64,000 nucleotides of DNA, taken from the NCBI GenBank assembly GCA_029213195.1, contig JARGNI010000006.1, positions 1 to 64,000 of the forward strand, written 5' to 3'. Positions 35,811-41,692 of this stretch are shown here, piece after piece. Position numbers and translations under genes: made by a program. This DNA is from Verrucomicrobiales bacterium. GTDB lineage: Bacteria; Verrucomicrobiota; Verrucomicrobiia; Verrucomicrobiales; DEV007. Under the pieces are notes generated by a model, which was given only the letters and a program-made list of their open reading frames with translations, was not told the DNA's origin and made no database searches. Every line of letters starts with the position of its first letter. Position 1 is the first letter of the stretch.

Positions 35811-35856
35811 TTGCTAGGATTACACCTGTAATCTAAAACGGATTACATCTGTAAGG
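35811..35856 (+). promoter_or_regulatory. Autoregulated blaI promoter with two BlaI-type operators
   Basis: A TTGCTA (35811-35816) and TAAAAC (35834-35839) are spaced exactly 17 bp. The spacer holds GATTACACCTGTAATC (35818-35833), an inverted repeat with perfect 7-bp arms and the TACA-N2-TGTA core bound by BlaI/MecI repressors. A second, partly degenerate copy, GATTACATCTGTAAGG (35841-35856), overlaps the expected transcription start and the AAGGA just before the blaI ATG. Repressor bound to the first site would occlude RNA polymerase. This strongly suggests autoregulation of the blaI-M56 operon. Confidence 0.85.
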
Positions 35857-35857
35857 A

Positions 35858-36253
35858 ATGAGCAAGAATCACGCCCCGAATATCTCCGATTCCGAGTGGA
35901 CCGTCATGCGGGTTTTCTGGTCGCGGGGAGAATCCACCTCCAGTGAGGTCATTGCCGCGCTCGCTTCGGAAACGGATTGGAAGCCCAAGACGATTCAGAC
36001 CCTGATTCGACGTCTCGTGCAGAAAGAGGCCCTGACTTATCAGAAGATCGGACGGGAGTATCTCTATCGTCCGGCAGTGGACGAACGCACCTGTGAGGAA
36101 GCCGCAAGCCGGCGATTTCTCGATCGGGTTTTCGATGGCAAGCTCGCTCCTTTCCTCGCCACTTTCGTCGAAAGCTCCAACTACTCGGAGGAAGAAATCG
36201 CTCAACTGAAACAGATCCTGGAAGAAGGAGGACCGGATGGAAACTCTGCTTGA
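35858..36253 (+). CDS. blaI: BlaI/MecI family transcriptional repressor
   Basis: A 131-residue winged-helix repressor. ISDSEWTVMRVFWSRGESTSSEVIAAL and WKPKTIQTLIRRLVQKEALTYQKIGREYLYRP form the DNA-binding domain (about 9-75), and the C-terminal helices (CEEAASRRFLDRVFDGKLAPFLATF) provide dimerisation and the region cleaved during induction in relatives. It is followed, with a 17-bp overlap, by an M56 membrane peptidase, the standard sensor partner. Two operators sit in its own promoter. Despite the name, the target in this phylum is usually not a beta-lactamase; here the next genes are a PSD1/DUF1501 pair. Confidence 0.92.
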   Translation: MSKNHAPNISDSEWTVMRVFWSRGESTSSEVIAALASETDWKPKTIQTLIRRLVQKEALTYQKIGREYLYRPAVDERTCEEAASRRFLDRVFDGKLAPFLATFVESSNYSEEEIAQLKQILEEGGPDGNSA

Positions 36254-38312
36254 ATCGCTCACTTCGTTCGCCTCGTGGGTCGGCCGGAATTCGCTCGAAT
36301 CCAGCCCGCTCATCGCTGTTTTTCTCCTCCTCGCTCTTGGCTTCGGTCGGCGACTTTCTCCCTCCTTGCGGGCCTGTTTGTGGACTGTGGTCGGACTGCG
36401 ATTGATCCTGCCTTTTGCCCCACCCAGTGCATTCAGCCTCTACAACCTCGCTCCGAAGAATGACAATGCAGTCGTGAGTGAAACCTTCCAGGTTCCCGCT
36501 TCCTCGATTCGAGAATCCGATCCTGCCCTGGCCTCGACCACTCCACTCCCGATCGAAGACTCCTCTTCAACACAGGTTCCTGAAAAAGCGGAATCTACCT
36601 GGAGTTGGACAACGGTCCTTTCGATTCTCTGGATTAGTGGAGCCATCGGACTGCTGGGATTCGCCCGGATGCGACAGAGGGCCACCGCGAGGATCGTCCG
36701 AAGCCTGGCTCCGATCTCAGATCCATCTCTCCAGGAACGATTCGAAGAATGTGCGGCCCGATCCGGCACTCGGAGTTCCCCGAGCCTCGTCGAAGGACCG
36801 AAGGGCTGCGGGGTCGCCGTCTTCGGATTTCTCCGTGTGACCCACCTGATCCTCCCACCTGACTTTGCAAAGCGATATTCGGAGCTGGAAATGCGAGGCA
36901 TCTTTCTCCACGAGCTCGCCCACATCCGACGACAGGATCTTCTCTGGAACTGGGTCGTGCTGCTACTTCAGGTGCTCCATTGGTTCAATCCTCTCGTCTG
37001 GATCGCAGGACGCCGTTTTCTCGCGGACAGAGAGGTTCTTTGTGATCGCGCCGCCCTTCGCAGTCTCCCAAAACAGGGACGCCGCGATTATGGCGCGGCC
37101 TTGCTCAAAGCCCTGGAATTCGGTCGCACTCCCCAGCCCTGTCCCGCCTTGGTCCCCTTTGTCTCTCGAAAATCCGAACTCAAACATCGCCTTTCCATGA
37201 TCATGAACCCCCAATCCAGAAACCTGAAACTGCAGTCCCTCGTTGCCCTGCTCGCCGCTCTCGTGGCCTTTGCAACCTTCACTTCTGCCCGAGCGGATGA
37301 CGAGCGAACAGAGTCCACCGAGCCACGTCGTGAAAGTCCCCGAGATGGCGACCGAGAATCGCCTGAGCGTTCACGCCCCGAGGGCGACCGGGAAAGCGGA
37401 GAACGTCGCGAAGGAGACCGCCCTCGAGAAGGCGATCGTGACGGCGATCGTCCGAGAGAAAGTGCCCGCGATGGAGACCGACCCCGTGAGGGAATGCGCG
37501 ACGGAGATCGTCCACATGAAGGTGCTCGTGACGGCGATCGTCCGAGAGAAAGTGCTCGCGACGGCGACCGACCCCGCGAAGGAGGGCTGCGAGACACTCC
37601 GGACGGAGGCGGCACTCTTCGGGTCAGCGTTCACCGCTCGGGCGTCGCCCTGGGAGATCGGAGGTATTCGAAGATGGCTGATTTCGAGGCGGCTCTTCGA
37701 GAGGCCGAAGGGAAGAGTGCCATCCTCTCCGCCGAACCCAATACCCCCTTCAAAACGGTCACCGCAGTGATGAACGCCCTGAAAAAAGCCGGAGTGGAAA
37801 ACGTATCCCTGGCATCGCAGGAAAGACGTGGTGACCAGGACCGGATGCGAGATGGCGAAGCGCCGCGCGAGGGCGATCGCCCTCGAGAAGGAGAGAGGGA
37901 TGGAGACCGCGATCGCCCCAGAGAAGGCGCACGCGATGGGGACAAGCCTCGCGAGGGAATGCGAGAAGGCGACCGCCCGCGAGAAGGCGACCGTCCCAGA
38001 GAGGGTGACCGCCCCCGAGAAGGAGAACGGGAAGGCGAAATGCGACGCAATGCGGAAGGTGAGCGAGGAACCGGGGAAAGAGCAACTGCCGATCTCGATG
38101 ATCGCGAGCTAGCGAAACTGACCCGCATCTATCGAGCCTACGACAAGGACGAGAGCGGTGGCGTCACCTTTCAGGAATGGGTCGCGATGAAGAATTACGA
38201 GCTCAGCGCCGATCAAGAGAAACGGGAGAAAGGCTGGTTCGATCAGGCAGATTCCAACGGAGACGGAAAGGTCACCTTGGGTGAATGGATCGACTGGAAG
38301 GCCAGTCAGTAG
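36237..38312 (+). CDS. M56 metallopeptidase sensor fused to an ExbD-like domain and EF-hands
   Basis: A 691-residue BlaR1-like membrane protein with an unusual outer part. Membrane segments lie near 22-38, 46-62, 122-142, 240-262 and 330-350. The zinc-peptidase motif HELAH is at 225-229, with RRQDLLWNW after it. After the last helix come five 10-residue repeats of the RDGDRPREG type (401-450), an ExbD/TolR-like domain (about 460-529: LRVSVHRSGVALGDRRYS, then PFKTVTAVMNALKKAGVENVSL), a second RPREGD-rich repeat region (about 540-605) and two EF-hand loops (636-647 DKDESGGVTFQE; 672-683 DSNGDGKVTLGE). No penicillin-binding sensor domain is present. It probably senses an envelope signal, perhaps calcium, and cleaves BlaI. 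Confidence 0.88.
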   Translation: METLLESLTSFASWVGRNSLESSPLIAVFLLLALGFGRRLSPSLRACLWTVVGLRLILPFAPPSAFSLYNLAPKNDNAVVSETFQVPASSIRESDPALASTTPLPIEDSSSTQVPEKAESTWSWTTVLSILWISGAIGLLGFARMRQRATARIVRSLAPISDPSLQERFEECAARSGTRSSPSLVEGPKGCGVAVFGFLRVTHLILPPDFAKRYSELEMRGIFLHELAHIRRQDLLWNWVVLLLQVLHWFNPLVWIAGRRFLADREVLCDRAALRSLPKQGRRDYGAALLKALEFGRTPQPCPALVPFVSRKSELKHRLSMIMNPQSRNLKLQSLVALLAALVAFATFTSARADDERTESTEPRRESPRDGDRESPERSRPEGDRESGERREGDRPREGDRDGDRPRESARDGDRPREGMRDGDRPHEGARDGDRPRESARDGDRPREGGLRDTPDGGGTLRVSVHRSGVALGDRRYSKMADFEAALREAEGKSAILSAEPNTPFKTVTAVMNALKKAGVENVSLASQERRGDQDRMRDGEAPREGDRPREGERDGDRDRPREGARDGDKPREGMREGDRPREGDRPREGDRPREGEREGEMRRNAEGERGTGERATADLDDRELAKLTRIYRAYDKDESGGVTFQEWVAMKNYELSADQEKREKGWFDQADSNGDGKVTLGEWIDWKASQ
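37437..37586. repeat. 30-bp coding repeat, five units, in the M56 sensor
   Basis: Five tandem 30-bp units encode RDGDRPRESA, RDGDRPREGM, RDGDRPHEGA, RDGDRPRESA and RDGDRPREGG. Units 1 and 4 are almost identical at DNA level. They form a highly charged linker between the last membrane helix and the ExbD-like domain. Confidence 0.9.
37851..38045. repeat. Second RPREGD-type coding repeat in the M56 sensor
   Basis: A less regular array of the same charged motif (units such as EGDRPR and GARDGDKPRE) between the ExbD-like domain and the EF-hands. Units are 15 to 30 bp, all in frame. The charge alternation of Arg, Glu and Asp suggests an extended spacer. Boundaries are approximate. Confidence 0.8.
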
Positions 38313-38359: not shown

Positions 38360-40351
38360 ATGAAACCTTTTCTCACCGCTTCAGCGATCTCTCTGATGTT
38401 CCTGACCGCAGGAACCGGCGCGGAGATCACGAGCGATGACGACCTGCCCTGGTCCTTTCGTCCACTTTCCCGTCCAGAAGTCGACGCTGAAGCGTTCGGC
38501 TCCTGGCCACGCGATGACCTCGATTTTTTCATCGCGAGAAAACTCGCTGAGAAAGGGCTGCGCCCAAGTCAAGAGGCCGACCGTCGCACCCTGATCCGCA
38601 GGGCAGCTTTCGATCTCACCGGGCTCCCACCGACCCTCGAAGAGACGAAACAGTTTCTGCGCGATCCAGCCTCCGACGAGTTGGCCTTTGCCAAGGTCGT
38701 CGATGCCTATCTCGCCAGCCCCCGTTTCGGGGAGCGATGGGGAAGGCATTGGCTCGATGTGGCCCGCTACGCGGACAGTGTCGGCCGGACCTGGAATGCA
38801 CCTTTCGTCTACGCCTGGCGCTACCGGGATTGGGTCATCGAGTCCCTCAACGAAGACCAGCCCTAGGACGAGTTCATCACCAACCAGATCGCCGGAGACC
38901 TGGTCTCGGCCGATACGGTTGCCGAACGAAGGAAGCAAGTCATCGCAACCGGCTTTCTTACCCTCGGTTCTCTTTCGATCAACCAGGGAGGCCAAGAGAC
39001 ATTTCTGCTCGACCAGATCGATGACCAGATCGATGTCACGACTCGCGGATTTCTCGCATTGAGCATCGCCTGTGCCCGATGTCACGATCACAAATATGAT
39101 CCCGTGGCCCAGATGGACTACTACGCGCTGGCCGGCATTTTCTACAGCTCGTGGACCTATCCGGGACAGGCGCATGTCAGCGATCACACCAGTGCCGGAT
39201 ACATCGATCCCAAGATGCTGGTGCGTTTGCCTACGGAACCCGACGAGCCGATCGATCGAGTCCGATCCATCCCCAACGGAATCCATACCATGGGCGATCT
39301 GCGTTCGTTCGGAGGAAAGGCTCCCCCACCCTTCGATCTCGAACCGGACTGGGCCATGGGAATGCGCGATGGCAAACCCGTCAACTGCGCTCTTCGCGAA
39401 GGCGGGGTTGCCTGGGACGAAGGGGAAACGCCACGTCGAGGCGACTTCCGTATCCCCGGGCTGCCAGATTTCCCCCGAGTCCCGGATGACTCCAGCGGTC
39501 GCCTCGAACTTGCCCGCTGGATCACCGATCCGCGCAATCCGCTGACCGCGCGAGTCGCCGTCAATCGGATCTGGTATCATCTCTTCGGCCGGGGACTGGT
39601 CGAATCGATCGACAATTTCGGGCTAACCGGTCAGGAACCCACCCACCCCGAGTTGCTCGATCACCTTGCGACACGCTTCGTCGAGGGAGGTTGGTCCCGG
39701 AAGCAGCTGATCCGCTCCATCATCCTCAGTCGAACTTATCAACTGGGGAGCGGACACGACGCAAAAGCCTACTCGATCGACCCTGACAATACACTTTATT
39801 GGCGAGCGTCTCCCCGACGACTCGAAATGGAGGCACTCCGGGACAGCCTCCTTTTCACCGCCGGCGTCCTCGAAGAAGCCGCGCCCTCACCGGGCAACCT
39901 TGCAGGAAATGGAAGCCGGGGGCGTGGTCGCACGCGGAGCGAAATCGGATTTTCATCTCCCTATCGAACGATCTACCTCCCCGTGATCCGCGACTTCCTG
40001 CCCGACGAATACGGGGTCTTTGATTTTCCCGATCCCAGTTCCGTCGCCGGGCAGAGACATGTCACTACCGCACCGCCCCAGGCCCTCTTTTTCATGAACA
40101 GTCGTTTCGTGGAAGACTGCGCCTACGACTTGGCAGACCGGCTTTTCGACCTCGCCGAAGCCGAACCCGACCGCATTGACATCGCCTATGAGCTGATCCT
40201 GAATCGAAAGCCGGATTCGGAAGAACGAGAAGCTGCCGCACGGCTCATGGATTCGCTGGATACTTCTGGGCTCCAGGATTCCCAGGGGTATCGCTGGGCA
40301 ACCTTTCTCCAGTCCCTTTACGCATCGGCAGAGTTTCGCTATGTCCTTTGA
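38360..40351 (+). pseudogene. PSD1 (DUF1549-DUF1553) gene interrupted by one in-frame amber codon
   Basis: Reading from the ATG at 38360 gives a signal peptide (MKPFLTASAISLMFLTAGTGA), DUF1549, then TAG at 38864-38866. The same frame continues without any other stop for 494 codons: CARCHDHKYDP completes DUF1549, and DUF1553 runs to the stop at 40349-40351. The amber replaces the aromatic residue found at this position in the other two copies (PYDDF at 4806, PFDQF at 27318), so a single TAC/TAT to TAG change explains it. This copy lacks the N-terminal PSCyt1 haem domain and has no insert between the two DUFs. It may be a recent nonsense mutation, a sequencing error or suppressed readthrough. 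Otherwise it starts 47 bp after the M56 gene. Confidence 0.88.
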
Positions 40352-40363
40352 TTGCTGGCCTTC

Positions 40364-41692
40364 ATGATTTCACGCCGTCACTTTCTTTCCCCCTCGGGTC
40401 CTGCTTTCGGATCGCTCGCGCTCAGCGCCCTTCTCCCTCACTGGTCTTTGCGAGCCGCGGCCAACCCTCTCGCCCCGCGCCGCGGACATCATCCGGCAAA
40501 GGCGAAGGGGGTCATCTTTCTCTTCATGAATGGCGGCCCAAGTCATCATGAAAGCTTCGACTACAAGCCGGAATTGACGCGCGCTTCCGAGAATTCCTCC
40601 CGGCTCCTGCAACCCGCGCTGCAGTTCTCGCCGTCGGGCCAAAGTGGTCTCATGATCTCGGAAGCCTTCCCCGAGTTGGCCCGTCATGCCGATGACCTCT
40701 GTCTCCTCAACGGCATGAAAATCGGGACCAACGGTCATCACCAGGCTGTCGTACGCATGCACACCGGCAACGAAATGTTCGTTCGCCCTTCCATGGGGAG
40801 TTGGGTCGTTTACGGACTCGGCTCGGAGGCAGAGGACTTGCCGGGCTTCGTCACCATCGATCCCATCTCGAACCTCGGCGGAGCCGGAAATTACGGATCC
40901 GCCTTCCTCCCTGCCACCTTCCAGGGAACCCGCATCGGCAGCCAGTCTGGCGGCGTCCCCCACCTTTCCAACCAACGACTCACAAAAGCGGACCAGCGAA
41001 ACCAGCTCGATTTCATTCGTCGTTCCAACGAAAAGCTAATCGAAAGGATCCCGGGCATCCCGGAGTTCGAAGGCGTCGTCCAGAGCTACGAAATGGCGTT
41101 CAAGATGCAGTCTTCGATCCCCGAGACTTTCGATCTGTCCTCGGAGTCGCCGCAAATCCTCAAGCGCTATGGAATCGATCAGGGAGTGACCGCCGGGTTC
41201 GGAAGGCAGTGCCTCATGGCTCGCCGTCTCGCGGAACGCGGGGTGCGATTCATCCAGCTAACGAGCAACGGATGGGATCATCATGGCAACGTCGGAAAAG
41301 GGGTTCTCGACCGAGGGGCCGCCGTCGACAAACCCATCGCCGGTCTTCTCAGCGATCTCAAGGATCGAGACCTGCTCCGGGACACGCTCGTTGTCTGGGG
41401 TGGAGAGTTCGGACGAGGAGCCTACGAAGACAACGCGGGAGGTCGCGGCCACAACGGATCCGGGTTCACTTTCTGGATGGCCGGAGGCGGAGTGAAAGGG
41501 GGCCACGTCCACGGTGCGACCGATGAACTCGGCGCCGCGGCCGTCGAGGACGTGATGGATTTCCACGACCTTCATGCGACGATTCTTCACCTGCTGGGGC
41601 TCGATCATCGCAAGCTCACCTATCGCTATGCCGGTCGCGATTTCCGACTGACCGATACGGAGGGCAGGGTCGCGAAGAAGATCCTCGCCTGA
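40364..41692 (+). CDS. DUF1501 family secreted protein
   Basis: A 442-residue DUF1501 protein, shorter than the other two. MISRRHFLSPSGPAFGSLAL is a Tat-type signal; the ATG at 40364 is 12 bp after the stop of the broken PSD1 gene. Motifs: LFMNGGPSHHESFDYKP, SNGWDHHGNV, VVWGGEFGRGAY, GHNGSGFTFWMAGGGVKGG, FRLTDTEGRV. It appears intact. It would normally work with the upstream PSD1 protein, so if the amber codon is real the partner may be lost. Confidence 0.9.
   Translation: MISRRHFLSPSGPAFGSLALSALLPHWSLRAAANPLAPRRGHHPAKAKGVIFLFMNGGPSHHESFDYKPELTRASENSSRLLQPALQFSPSGQSGLMISEAFPELARHADDLCLLNGMKIGTNGHHQAVVRMHTGNEMFVRPSMGSWVVYGLGSEAEDLPGFVTIDPISNLGGAGNYGSAFLPATFQGTRIGSQSGGVPHLSNQRLTKADQRNQLDFIRRSNEKLIERIPGIPEFEGVVQSYEMAFKMQSSIPETFDLSSESPQILKRYGIDQGVTAGFGRQCLMARRLAERGVRFIQLTSNGWDHHGNVGKGVLDRGAAVDKPIAGLLSDLKDRDLLRDTLVVWGGEFGRGAYEDNAGGRGHNGSGFTFWMAGGGVKGGHVHGATDELGAAAVEDVMDFHDLHATILHLLGLDHRKLTYRYAGRDFRLTDTEGRVAKKILA

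Follow-up and report, generated by a model that had tools for sequence, protein, structure and literature searches.

An M56/BlaI system from a Verrucomicrobiales bacterium with an ExbD/TolR domain and an EF-hand pair in place of the penicillin sensor

Introduction

BlaR1 is known as a penicillin alarm, and the locus described here raises the question of what such an alarm would read once its penicillin-binding half has been exchanged for something else. The locus lies in a stretch of 64,000 nucleotides from a Verrucomicrobiales bacterium (assembly GCA_029213195.1, contig JARGNI010000006.1, positions 1 to 64,000; hereafter the window). A first-pass annotation, made from the sequence letters and their open reading frames, had read the gene at 36237-38312 as a BlaR1-like M56 peptidase fused to ExbD-like and EF-hand domains through charged repeats, and had proposed that it might switch the BlaI repressor. 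Here, we find that this gene belongs to an M56/BlaI system with a new sensor, and we weigh what that sensor may do.

Results

The gene encodes the following parts (window coordinates).

36237-38312, + strand: M56 protease - tether - ExbD - tether - EF-hand pair gene, 691 amino acids in a single open frame
36279..37202, + strand: M56 (BlaR1) membrane zinc-protease domain, residues 15-322 (Pfam, BlaR1 matches)
36909..36923, + strand: HELAH zinc motif, residues 225-229, with E266, D270, Y285 and R318
37224..37277, + strand: last transmembrane helix, residues 330-347, without an acidic residue
37287..37298, + strand: putative signal-peptidase-I-like site, A351-R352-A353 before D354, at the helix end (SARA before D; BlaR1 precedent)
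37296..37607, + strand: tether 1, residues 354-457, RDGDRPREGx repeats, disordered
37608..37826, + strand: ExbD/TolR periplasmic-fold domain, residues 458-530 (profiles, AlphaFold2, Foldseek, VIA-align)
37827..38090, + strand: tether 2, residues 531-618, charged repeats
38142..38177, + strand: EF-hand loop 1, residues 636-647 (Pfam, loop ligands)
38250..38285, + strand: EF-hand loop 2, residues 672-683 (Pfam, loop ligands)

The protein is a BlaR1/MecR1-type M56 zinc protease without a penicillin-binding domain. Pfam Peptidase_M56 covers residues 15-322 at an expect value (E) of 2.9e-52 (178.1 bits, cut-off 31), BlaR1 8exp aligns with the same domain by sequence (E 3.8e-9), and the best solved matches of a full-length AlphaFold2 model are BlaR1 (8exs, Z score 20.3, root-mean-square deviation (rmsd) 4.4, 258 residues aligned), followed by other zinc proteases and ExbD. 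The predicted local distance difference test (pLDDT) of the M56 part is mostly 90-97, with a low loop near residues 71-120. Residues H225, E226, H229, E266, D270, Y285 and R318 are invariant in 30 of 30 rows of the M56 alignment and stand at an offset of 24 after H201, E202, H205, E242, D246, Y261 and R294 of BlaR1, among which we take Glu242 to be an active-site residue. The HEXXH motif from His201, together with Asp246, Tyr261 and Arg294, is assigned to the BlaR1 active site in the excerpted account of that protein (PMC9834060). The penicillin-sensing half was not seen: the NCBIfam model blaR1_generic scores 150.5 bits against a cut-off of 400 and is matched over positions 8-335 of its 585 only. 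On both counts, a BlaR1-like peptidase and a missing penicillin sensor, the first-pass annotation is borne out. One M56 match was found in the genome, a 95% complete draft of 115 contigs.

The segment between the tethers has the ExbD/TolR fold, for which profiles, AlphaFold2 and Foldseek agree. Pfam ExbD matches residues 460-528 with 27.4 bits (cut-off 25.4), or 32.6 bits for the domain alone; at E <= 1 it matches 15 of 16 domains, comprising the window's and those of 15 relatives, and a profile of 16 ExbD-like domains retrieves solved ExbD 8pek from PDB sequences (E 3.5e-5). AlphaFold2 gave a mean pLDDT of 84 on eight ExbD-like sequences and 91-96 for the domain in the full-length model. Foldseek ranks 1-8 are all ExbD/TolR, and VIA-align superposes 8p9r with Z 9.8 and an rmsd of 1.8 over 69 aligned residues, the best unrelated row reaching Z 8.2 (2f9t); unrelated rows up to that score were disregarded as a common arrangement. 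The ExbD/TolR-like domain of the first-pass annotation is thereby confirmed, with limits corrected from 460-529 to 458-530. Motor subunits of the ExbD/TolR type carry an N-terminal membrane helix with a conserved acidic residue shortly before the domain. The helix that precedes the domain here (residues 330-347) is free of D and E, and over 100 residues separate it from the domain.

The chain ends in an EF-hand pair with two complete loops, predicted to bind calcium, spanning about residues 619-691 (rather than 630-691, as first drawn) with helices from 622. Pfam EF-hand_1 matches in two stretches with 32.1 bits (cut-off 25.4), and the ligands at loop positions 1, 3, 5, 9 and 12 are the canonical D, D, S, T, E in loop 1 and D, N, D, T, E in loop 2, which agrees with the two intact loops noted earlier. 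The four proteins that share the full architecture described below have canonical ligands in all eight of their loops. The pair has a pLDDT of 65-87.

Both tethers are repetitive. Tandem Repeats Finder reports arrays on both sides of the ExbD domain, at 37407-37583 and within 37873-38023. The unit has ten residues, RDGDRPREGx with variants, and occurs five times in succession; the first-pass annotation had the repeats and their decapeptide nature right and the motif, RDGDRPREG, one letter short. AlphaFold2 places both repeat stretches under pLDDT 50, in tether 1 over residues 369-457, and the composition of tether 1 is strongly charged (R+K 0.26, D+E 0.34). Tether 1 ranges from 61 to 146 residues among the measured relatives, with L007 left out for a mis-assigned ExbD (a weak secondary match) and L040 for a site that was not located (L and G denote our handles for loci and genomes). 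A genome-wide search for proteins with these repeats gave 2 matches, both within the M56 gene itself.

The SARA sequence at the end of the last helix is no more than suggestive of cleavage of the tail by signal peptidase I. A-x-A closes this helix in 16 of 19 M56-ExbD/EF rows, a descriptive count, as the patterns were written after the ends had been viewed. Over 97 M56 proteins, which are related and not statistically independent, A-x-A occurs at 43 ends versus a shuffle mean of 31.2 (largest 45) and small-x-A at 83 versus 70.3 (largest 84); 8 proteins without HExxH and known duplicates had been dropped beforehand, and then 3 of 100 per helix as weak or missing. A lipobox-like motif ends the last helix in 17 of the 97 proteins versus 0 of 97 for helix 2 (shuffle mean 3.2, largest 9), a pattern that would fit lipidation of the sensor half in these proteins and its cleavage by signal peptidase II. 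Such lipobox-like ends are mostly from Bacillota (examples are L050, L054, L074, L085, L086, L095, L101, L102 and L103).

The M56 gene sits in a group of genes preceded by paired operator-like sites.

35818..35833, strand not assigned: predicted BlaI/MecI/CopY-type operator 1, GATTACACCTGTAATC, a perfect dyad
35841..35856, strand not assigned: predicted operator 2, GATTACATCTGTAAGG, ending one base before the blaI start codon
35858..36253, + strand: blaI, BlaI/MecI-type repressor, 131 amino acids, aligning with MecI
38360..40351, + strand: PSCyt2/PSD1 (DUF1549/DUF1553) gene, probably of the same operon (synteny), with one in-frame TAG
40352..41692, + strand: DUF1501 gene, probably of the same operon (synteny)

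The window contains 2 operator dyads, versus 0.05 expected by chance, and similar tandem sites were seen by eye before blaI in 13 of 14 readable loci, the pair of L041 being divergent (16 loci were chosen, of which L117 and L118 were unreadable). The blaI and M56 genes overlap by 17 bp. A genome search for BlaI gave one match, over the Pfam cut-off; its scores with BlaI/MecI-specific models fall below their exception-level cut-offs. Residues 5-122 align with MecI (1okr, E 6.3e-19) and place F103 at MecI position 102, which keeps Phe at P1'. In Staphylococcus aureus, BlaI is cleaved between Asn101 and Phe102 (PMC9834060, excerpt), and by analogy the predicted cleavage point in the window BlaI is probably between T102 and F103. 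Proteolytic switching of BlaI, as the first-pass annotation proposed, is the natural prediction for an M56 protease that lacks a penicillin sensor and has a BlaI partner and operators.

The order blaI - M56 - PSCyt2/PSD1 - DUF1501 is found in the window and in L032, L171, L172 and L173. In L035 a pectate lyase follows the M56 gene and one more frame precedes DUF1501, and L036, L037, L040, L188 and L189 hold the operon in part, several being cut by contig ends. From this we infer, weakly, that the sensor gene is co-transcribed with PSCyt2/PSD1 and DUF1501. A pectate-lyase-like gene after the M56 gene recurs in L035 (by Pfam), L036, L037, L040 and L188; pectate and pectate lyases are calcium-dependent, and this neighbor is a possible hint at the signal. 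A Planctomycetaceae M56 gene (L093:3-7070) likewise has PSCyt2/PSD1- and DUF1501-like genes after it.

When the whole genome was searched for the operator with up to two mismatches allowed, 5 sites came up: the known pair, a third with a single mismatch (C46) and two more that differ at two positions. A reversed-pattern control gave 0 sites. The three extra dyads (L135, L136 and L137, position 1501) stand singly at or near the starts of other frames, which by eye encode a small membrane protein, a PilB/GspE-like ATPase and a ZnuA-like binding protein. There may be a small wider BlaI regulon beyond the operon; because the extra dyads are single, not paired, we claim no further targets.

The full M56-tether-ExbD-tether-EF-hand chain occurs in four genomes: the window's, Co_bin.17 (L032), G623 (L173) and G619 (L171), with the G625 protein identical to that of Co_bin.17. 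Operon order in L032, L173 and L171 is the same as in the window. M56 identity to the window protein is 57-58% for L032 and L173 and 36% for L171, with EF-hand identities of 66-72%; L171 joins its 36% in M56 to 44% in ExbD and 72% in the EF-hand pair, and the other operon parts compared are 61% (BlaI), 68% (PSCyt2/PSD1) and 73% (DUF1501) identical. In a tree of 26 M56 cores, three of the triple proteins lie in a starred clade of six with L172, L003 and L168, and L171 lies in another starred clade of 13, which forces two label changes. The simplest reading of these comparisons would be exchange of one gene half, perhaps by recombination in the repeats.

Fusion of ExbD to M56 is recurrent, not unique to this chain, a point absent from the first-pass annotation, as were the tandem operators, the conserved genes after the M56 gene and the possible release of the tail by signal peptidase. 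In the family survey, an ExbD-like match at E <= 1e-5 was present in 39 of 74 genomes; in 13 genomes a strong match (E <= 4.1e-15) lies in a long frame with M56 (that of L014 read in part only), and G613, G628 and G632 add weaker matches on M56 proteins, some of which belong to other M56 subfamilies, giving fusions in at least 16 of the 74. The remaining short frames (about 136-255 amino acids, 28-38 bits) were taken as ordinary ExbD by length, the only one read being L170, a 334-amino acid frame with its own helix. Among the loci read, M56-ExbD without EF-hands is the commoner form; L168 has two ExbD copies on one M56 protein, L003 and L188 have M56-EF-hand without ExbD, and in G620 (L190:920-1411) a separate 164-amino acid frame between blaI and the M56 gene carries an EF-hand pair, charged repeats and, by eye, a signal peptide. 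No M56-ExbD protein outside the order was found at E <= 1e-8 in the class search (15 of 286 genomes matching, 10 outside the order) or the phylum search (11 of 387, 7 outside the order), whose overlapping genome sets were scored on 15-20 first-look candidates per genome, with misses possible, and judged mostly by frame length, with L119, L121, L127/L165 and L132/L164 read.

Several proteins seen along the way have related arrangements. L165:1901-4966 is a 1022-amino acid frame near a BlaI gene with two ExbD domains and an unknown, seemingly repeated domain, in which no M56 was seen. A Hanks-type kinase with a C-terminal ExbD domain (L164:372-3011; 45.6 bits, cut-off 25.4; transmembrane segment by eye) comes from a single, distant genome. 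A search of the 28 remaining genomes of its family gave no second case; 4 of these have ExbD-like matches, in frames of 2227, 1772 (twice), 140, 147 and 149 amino acids. The very long frames of 2227 and 1772 amino acids (L175 and L176; G347 and G644) carry ExbD-like domains, the second two of them. One of the genome searches covered 36 genomes, of which 25 matched. L024:1108-3459 is an M56 protein whose tail by eye resembles a PBP2-type transpeptidase, and M56 tails with repeated STN/secretin-like stretches, again by eye, occur in L013, L017, L018, L019, L021, L022, L028, L029 and L030.

Discussion

On balance, and with modest confidence, we favor the reading that the protein acts as an anti-repressor, which cleaves BlaI and carries a modular envelope sensor, and that the blaI-sensor-downstream operon is under its control. 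The domains, folds, active-site residues, operator dyads, operon conservation and single BlaI and M56 matches were computed directly, and BlaR1 is the model for topology, BlaI cleavage, membrane signalling and shedding. By that model, the membrane zinc protease would face the cytoplasm and the exported C-terminal half would control it. Occupancy of the ExbD groove, for which peptidoglycan and a strand-forming peptide are candidates, may together with the calcium state of the EF-hands set protease activity; we infer the ligand and the role of calcium only weakly. The active protease would cut BlaI near T102-F103, which would free the two operators and allow blaI, the sensor, PSCyt2/PSD1 and DUF1501 to be made. 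Signal peptidase may remove the sensor by cutting behind SARA while the system is in its basal state. S. aureus BlaR1 offers the precedent: SpsB cuts it after Gly331 and its sensor is released, chiefly under basal conditions according to the model in the excerpted report (PMC9834060).

A number of observations weigh against this reading. Sensing and BlaI cleavage by the protein are predictions by analogy, the ExbD ligand pocket is putative, and if the tail were cut off constitutively it could not act as a tethered sensor. Structural matches to the EF-hand pair are weak (Foldseek E 0.098 at best; VIA-align Z 6-7, best 7.0), so that the EF-hand assignment rests on Pfam and the loop residues. The ExbD domains of several relatives score under the Pfam cut-off (L032 20.1, L173 21.4, L172 18.4, L168 18.8, L166 19.5 and L169 20.0 bits) and those of L171 and L167 are without a Pfam listing at E <= 0.01, these assignments being made with the profile built in this analysis. 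Conservation of the downstream genes is also uneven: the short flanks of L166, L167, L168 and L190 showed neither PSCyt2/PSD1 nor DUF1501, and L033 carries only distant versions of both, on the other strand. DUF1501 is so common in the genome (68 matches, 67 over cut-off) that adjacency alone means little; what counts for the operon link is the closeness of these copies, with 81% identity between the window and L032 and 59% with L035, versus 31% with L033. Finally, the PSCyt2/PSD1 gene has an in-frame TAG at 38864-38866, where relatives read on. Because the part after the TAG is conserved (72% to L032), the codon would be a recent nonsense change, a sequencing error or a site of read-through.

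The alternative that deserves most attention, though we think it unlikely, is that a constitutive cut after SARA separates the M56 protease from a free periplasmic ExbD-EF-hand protein, which would act by itself or as a diffusible ligand for the protease. The predominance of A-x-A at the last-helix ends of the M56-ExbD/EF rows, the lipobox-like ends seen at this helix and not at helix 2, the separately encoded EF-hand and charged-repeat protein of G620 and the shedding of the S. aureus sensor by SpsB all fit such a release. Over the 97 proteins, however, A-x-A and small-x-A rise only moderately above their shuffles, in the published BlaR1 model it is the uncut protein that signals, and the in-frame fusion has been kept in 4 of 4 genomes with the triple architecture. 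Less probable still is an alternative in which the ExbD domain does no more than dimerise the protein or hold it to peptidoglycan and the real input comes from the membrane or the EF-hands. The periplasmic domains of ExbD and TolR form dimers able to contact peptidoglycan transiently (PMC10771500, excerpt), the length of tether 1 varies widely (61 to 146 residues), and ExbD and EF-hands each occur on M56 without the other; yet a role in ligand binding would also suit the two ExbD copies of L168 and the presence of ExbD tails on a kinase and on M56 proteins of distant subfamilies.

A role for the domain as a reporter on the state of a Ton/Tol proton motor, or as a competitor of ExbD for TonB, is very improbable. 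Its closest solved matches do include ExbD with the TonB D-box (8p9r, 8vgc), a strand that ExbD periplasmic domains bind in their dimer groove by strand recruitment (PMC10907165, excerpt). The domain nevertheless sits on about 104 disordered residues, and no ExbB family was found among the neighboring window proteins scanned. Motor coupling is unlikely because proton-motor subunits have a membrane anchor that is missing from this domain, and the response to such motors that the first-pass annotation had entertained is not supported, the domain having no membrane helix of its own and the M56 helix no acidic residue; identification as a motor subunit was rejected on the same two absences. Least credible, and in our view almost negligible, is a chimeric assembly or a repetitive tail that matches by chance. 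Assemblies classically go wrong at repeats, and the genome is a draft of 115 contigs, but the same chain and gene order recur in three other genomes (L032, L173 and L171), contradicting the joining of separate genes by assembly error that had been raised at the outset, and the fold evidence from AlphaFold2, Foldseek and VIA-align is independent. We rejected an artefact on these grounds.

Returning to the tethered-sensor reading, we speculate more tentatively that the ExbD/TolR periplasmic domain is a mobile sensory module in Verrucomicrobiota, grafted more than once onto M56 (singly, doubly or with EF-hands) and onto a Hanks-type kinase, that would read envelope state through wall contact, strand-peptide binding or calcium and report it by BlaI cleavage or phosphorylation. 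If the favored reading is true, it suggests that an antibiotic switch has been re-tooled to read another cell-envelope signal, and the M56-BlaI switch would be a platform for envelope signalling in general, on which sensors can be exchanged; the operon that carries it here is conserved in several genera. The M56-ExbD system would also allow tests of what ExbD domains bind when they are not part of a motor, and it offers a handle on the uncharacterised PSCyt2/PSD1-DUF1501 gene pairs. Among the matches listed in a search of the open-access literature, outside which lie most subscription journals and all preprints, no title or abstract opening concerned an M56-ExbD-EF-hand protein.

The closest known systems are BlaR1 and MecR1 (MEROPS M56) with BlaI and MecI, which share with the window system the M56 fold, the seven active-site residues compared, the BlaI partner and the dyad operators, as well as a last helix that leads to the C-terminal part, here through a linker that may allow signal-peptidase clipping. 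They differ in that their sensor resembles a class D beta-lactamase, whereas the window protein has an ExbD domain and an EF-hand pair on charged tethers, and in that they are linked to beta-lactamase or PBP2a, whereas the window system is linked to PSCyt2/PSD1 and DUF1501. With ExbD/TolR the window domain has in common the periplasmic-domain fold and sequence profile; unlike them, it lacks the membrane helix and acidic residue, stands singly on a long tether and has no ExbB/TolQ among the neighbors scanned. The EF-hand pair resembles those of the calmodulin superfamily in its two canonical, paired 12-residue loops and differs from them as a presumably exported bacterial domain that ends a protease. 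Other M56 proteins have likewise swapped the penicillin-binding tail for another (Secretin_N and PDZ by Pfam; STN-like, PD40-like and immunoglobulin-like by eye), and these mostly also adjoin BlaI, with tail domains that differ from those of the window protein.

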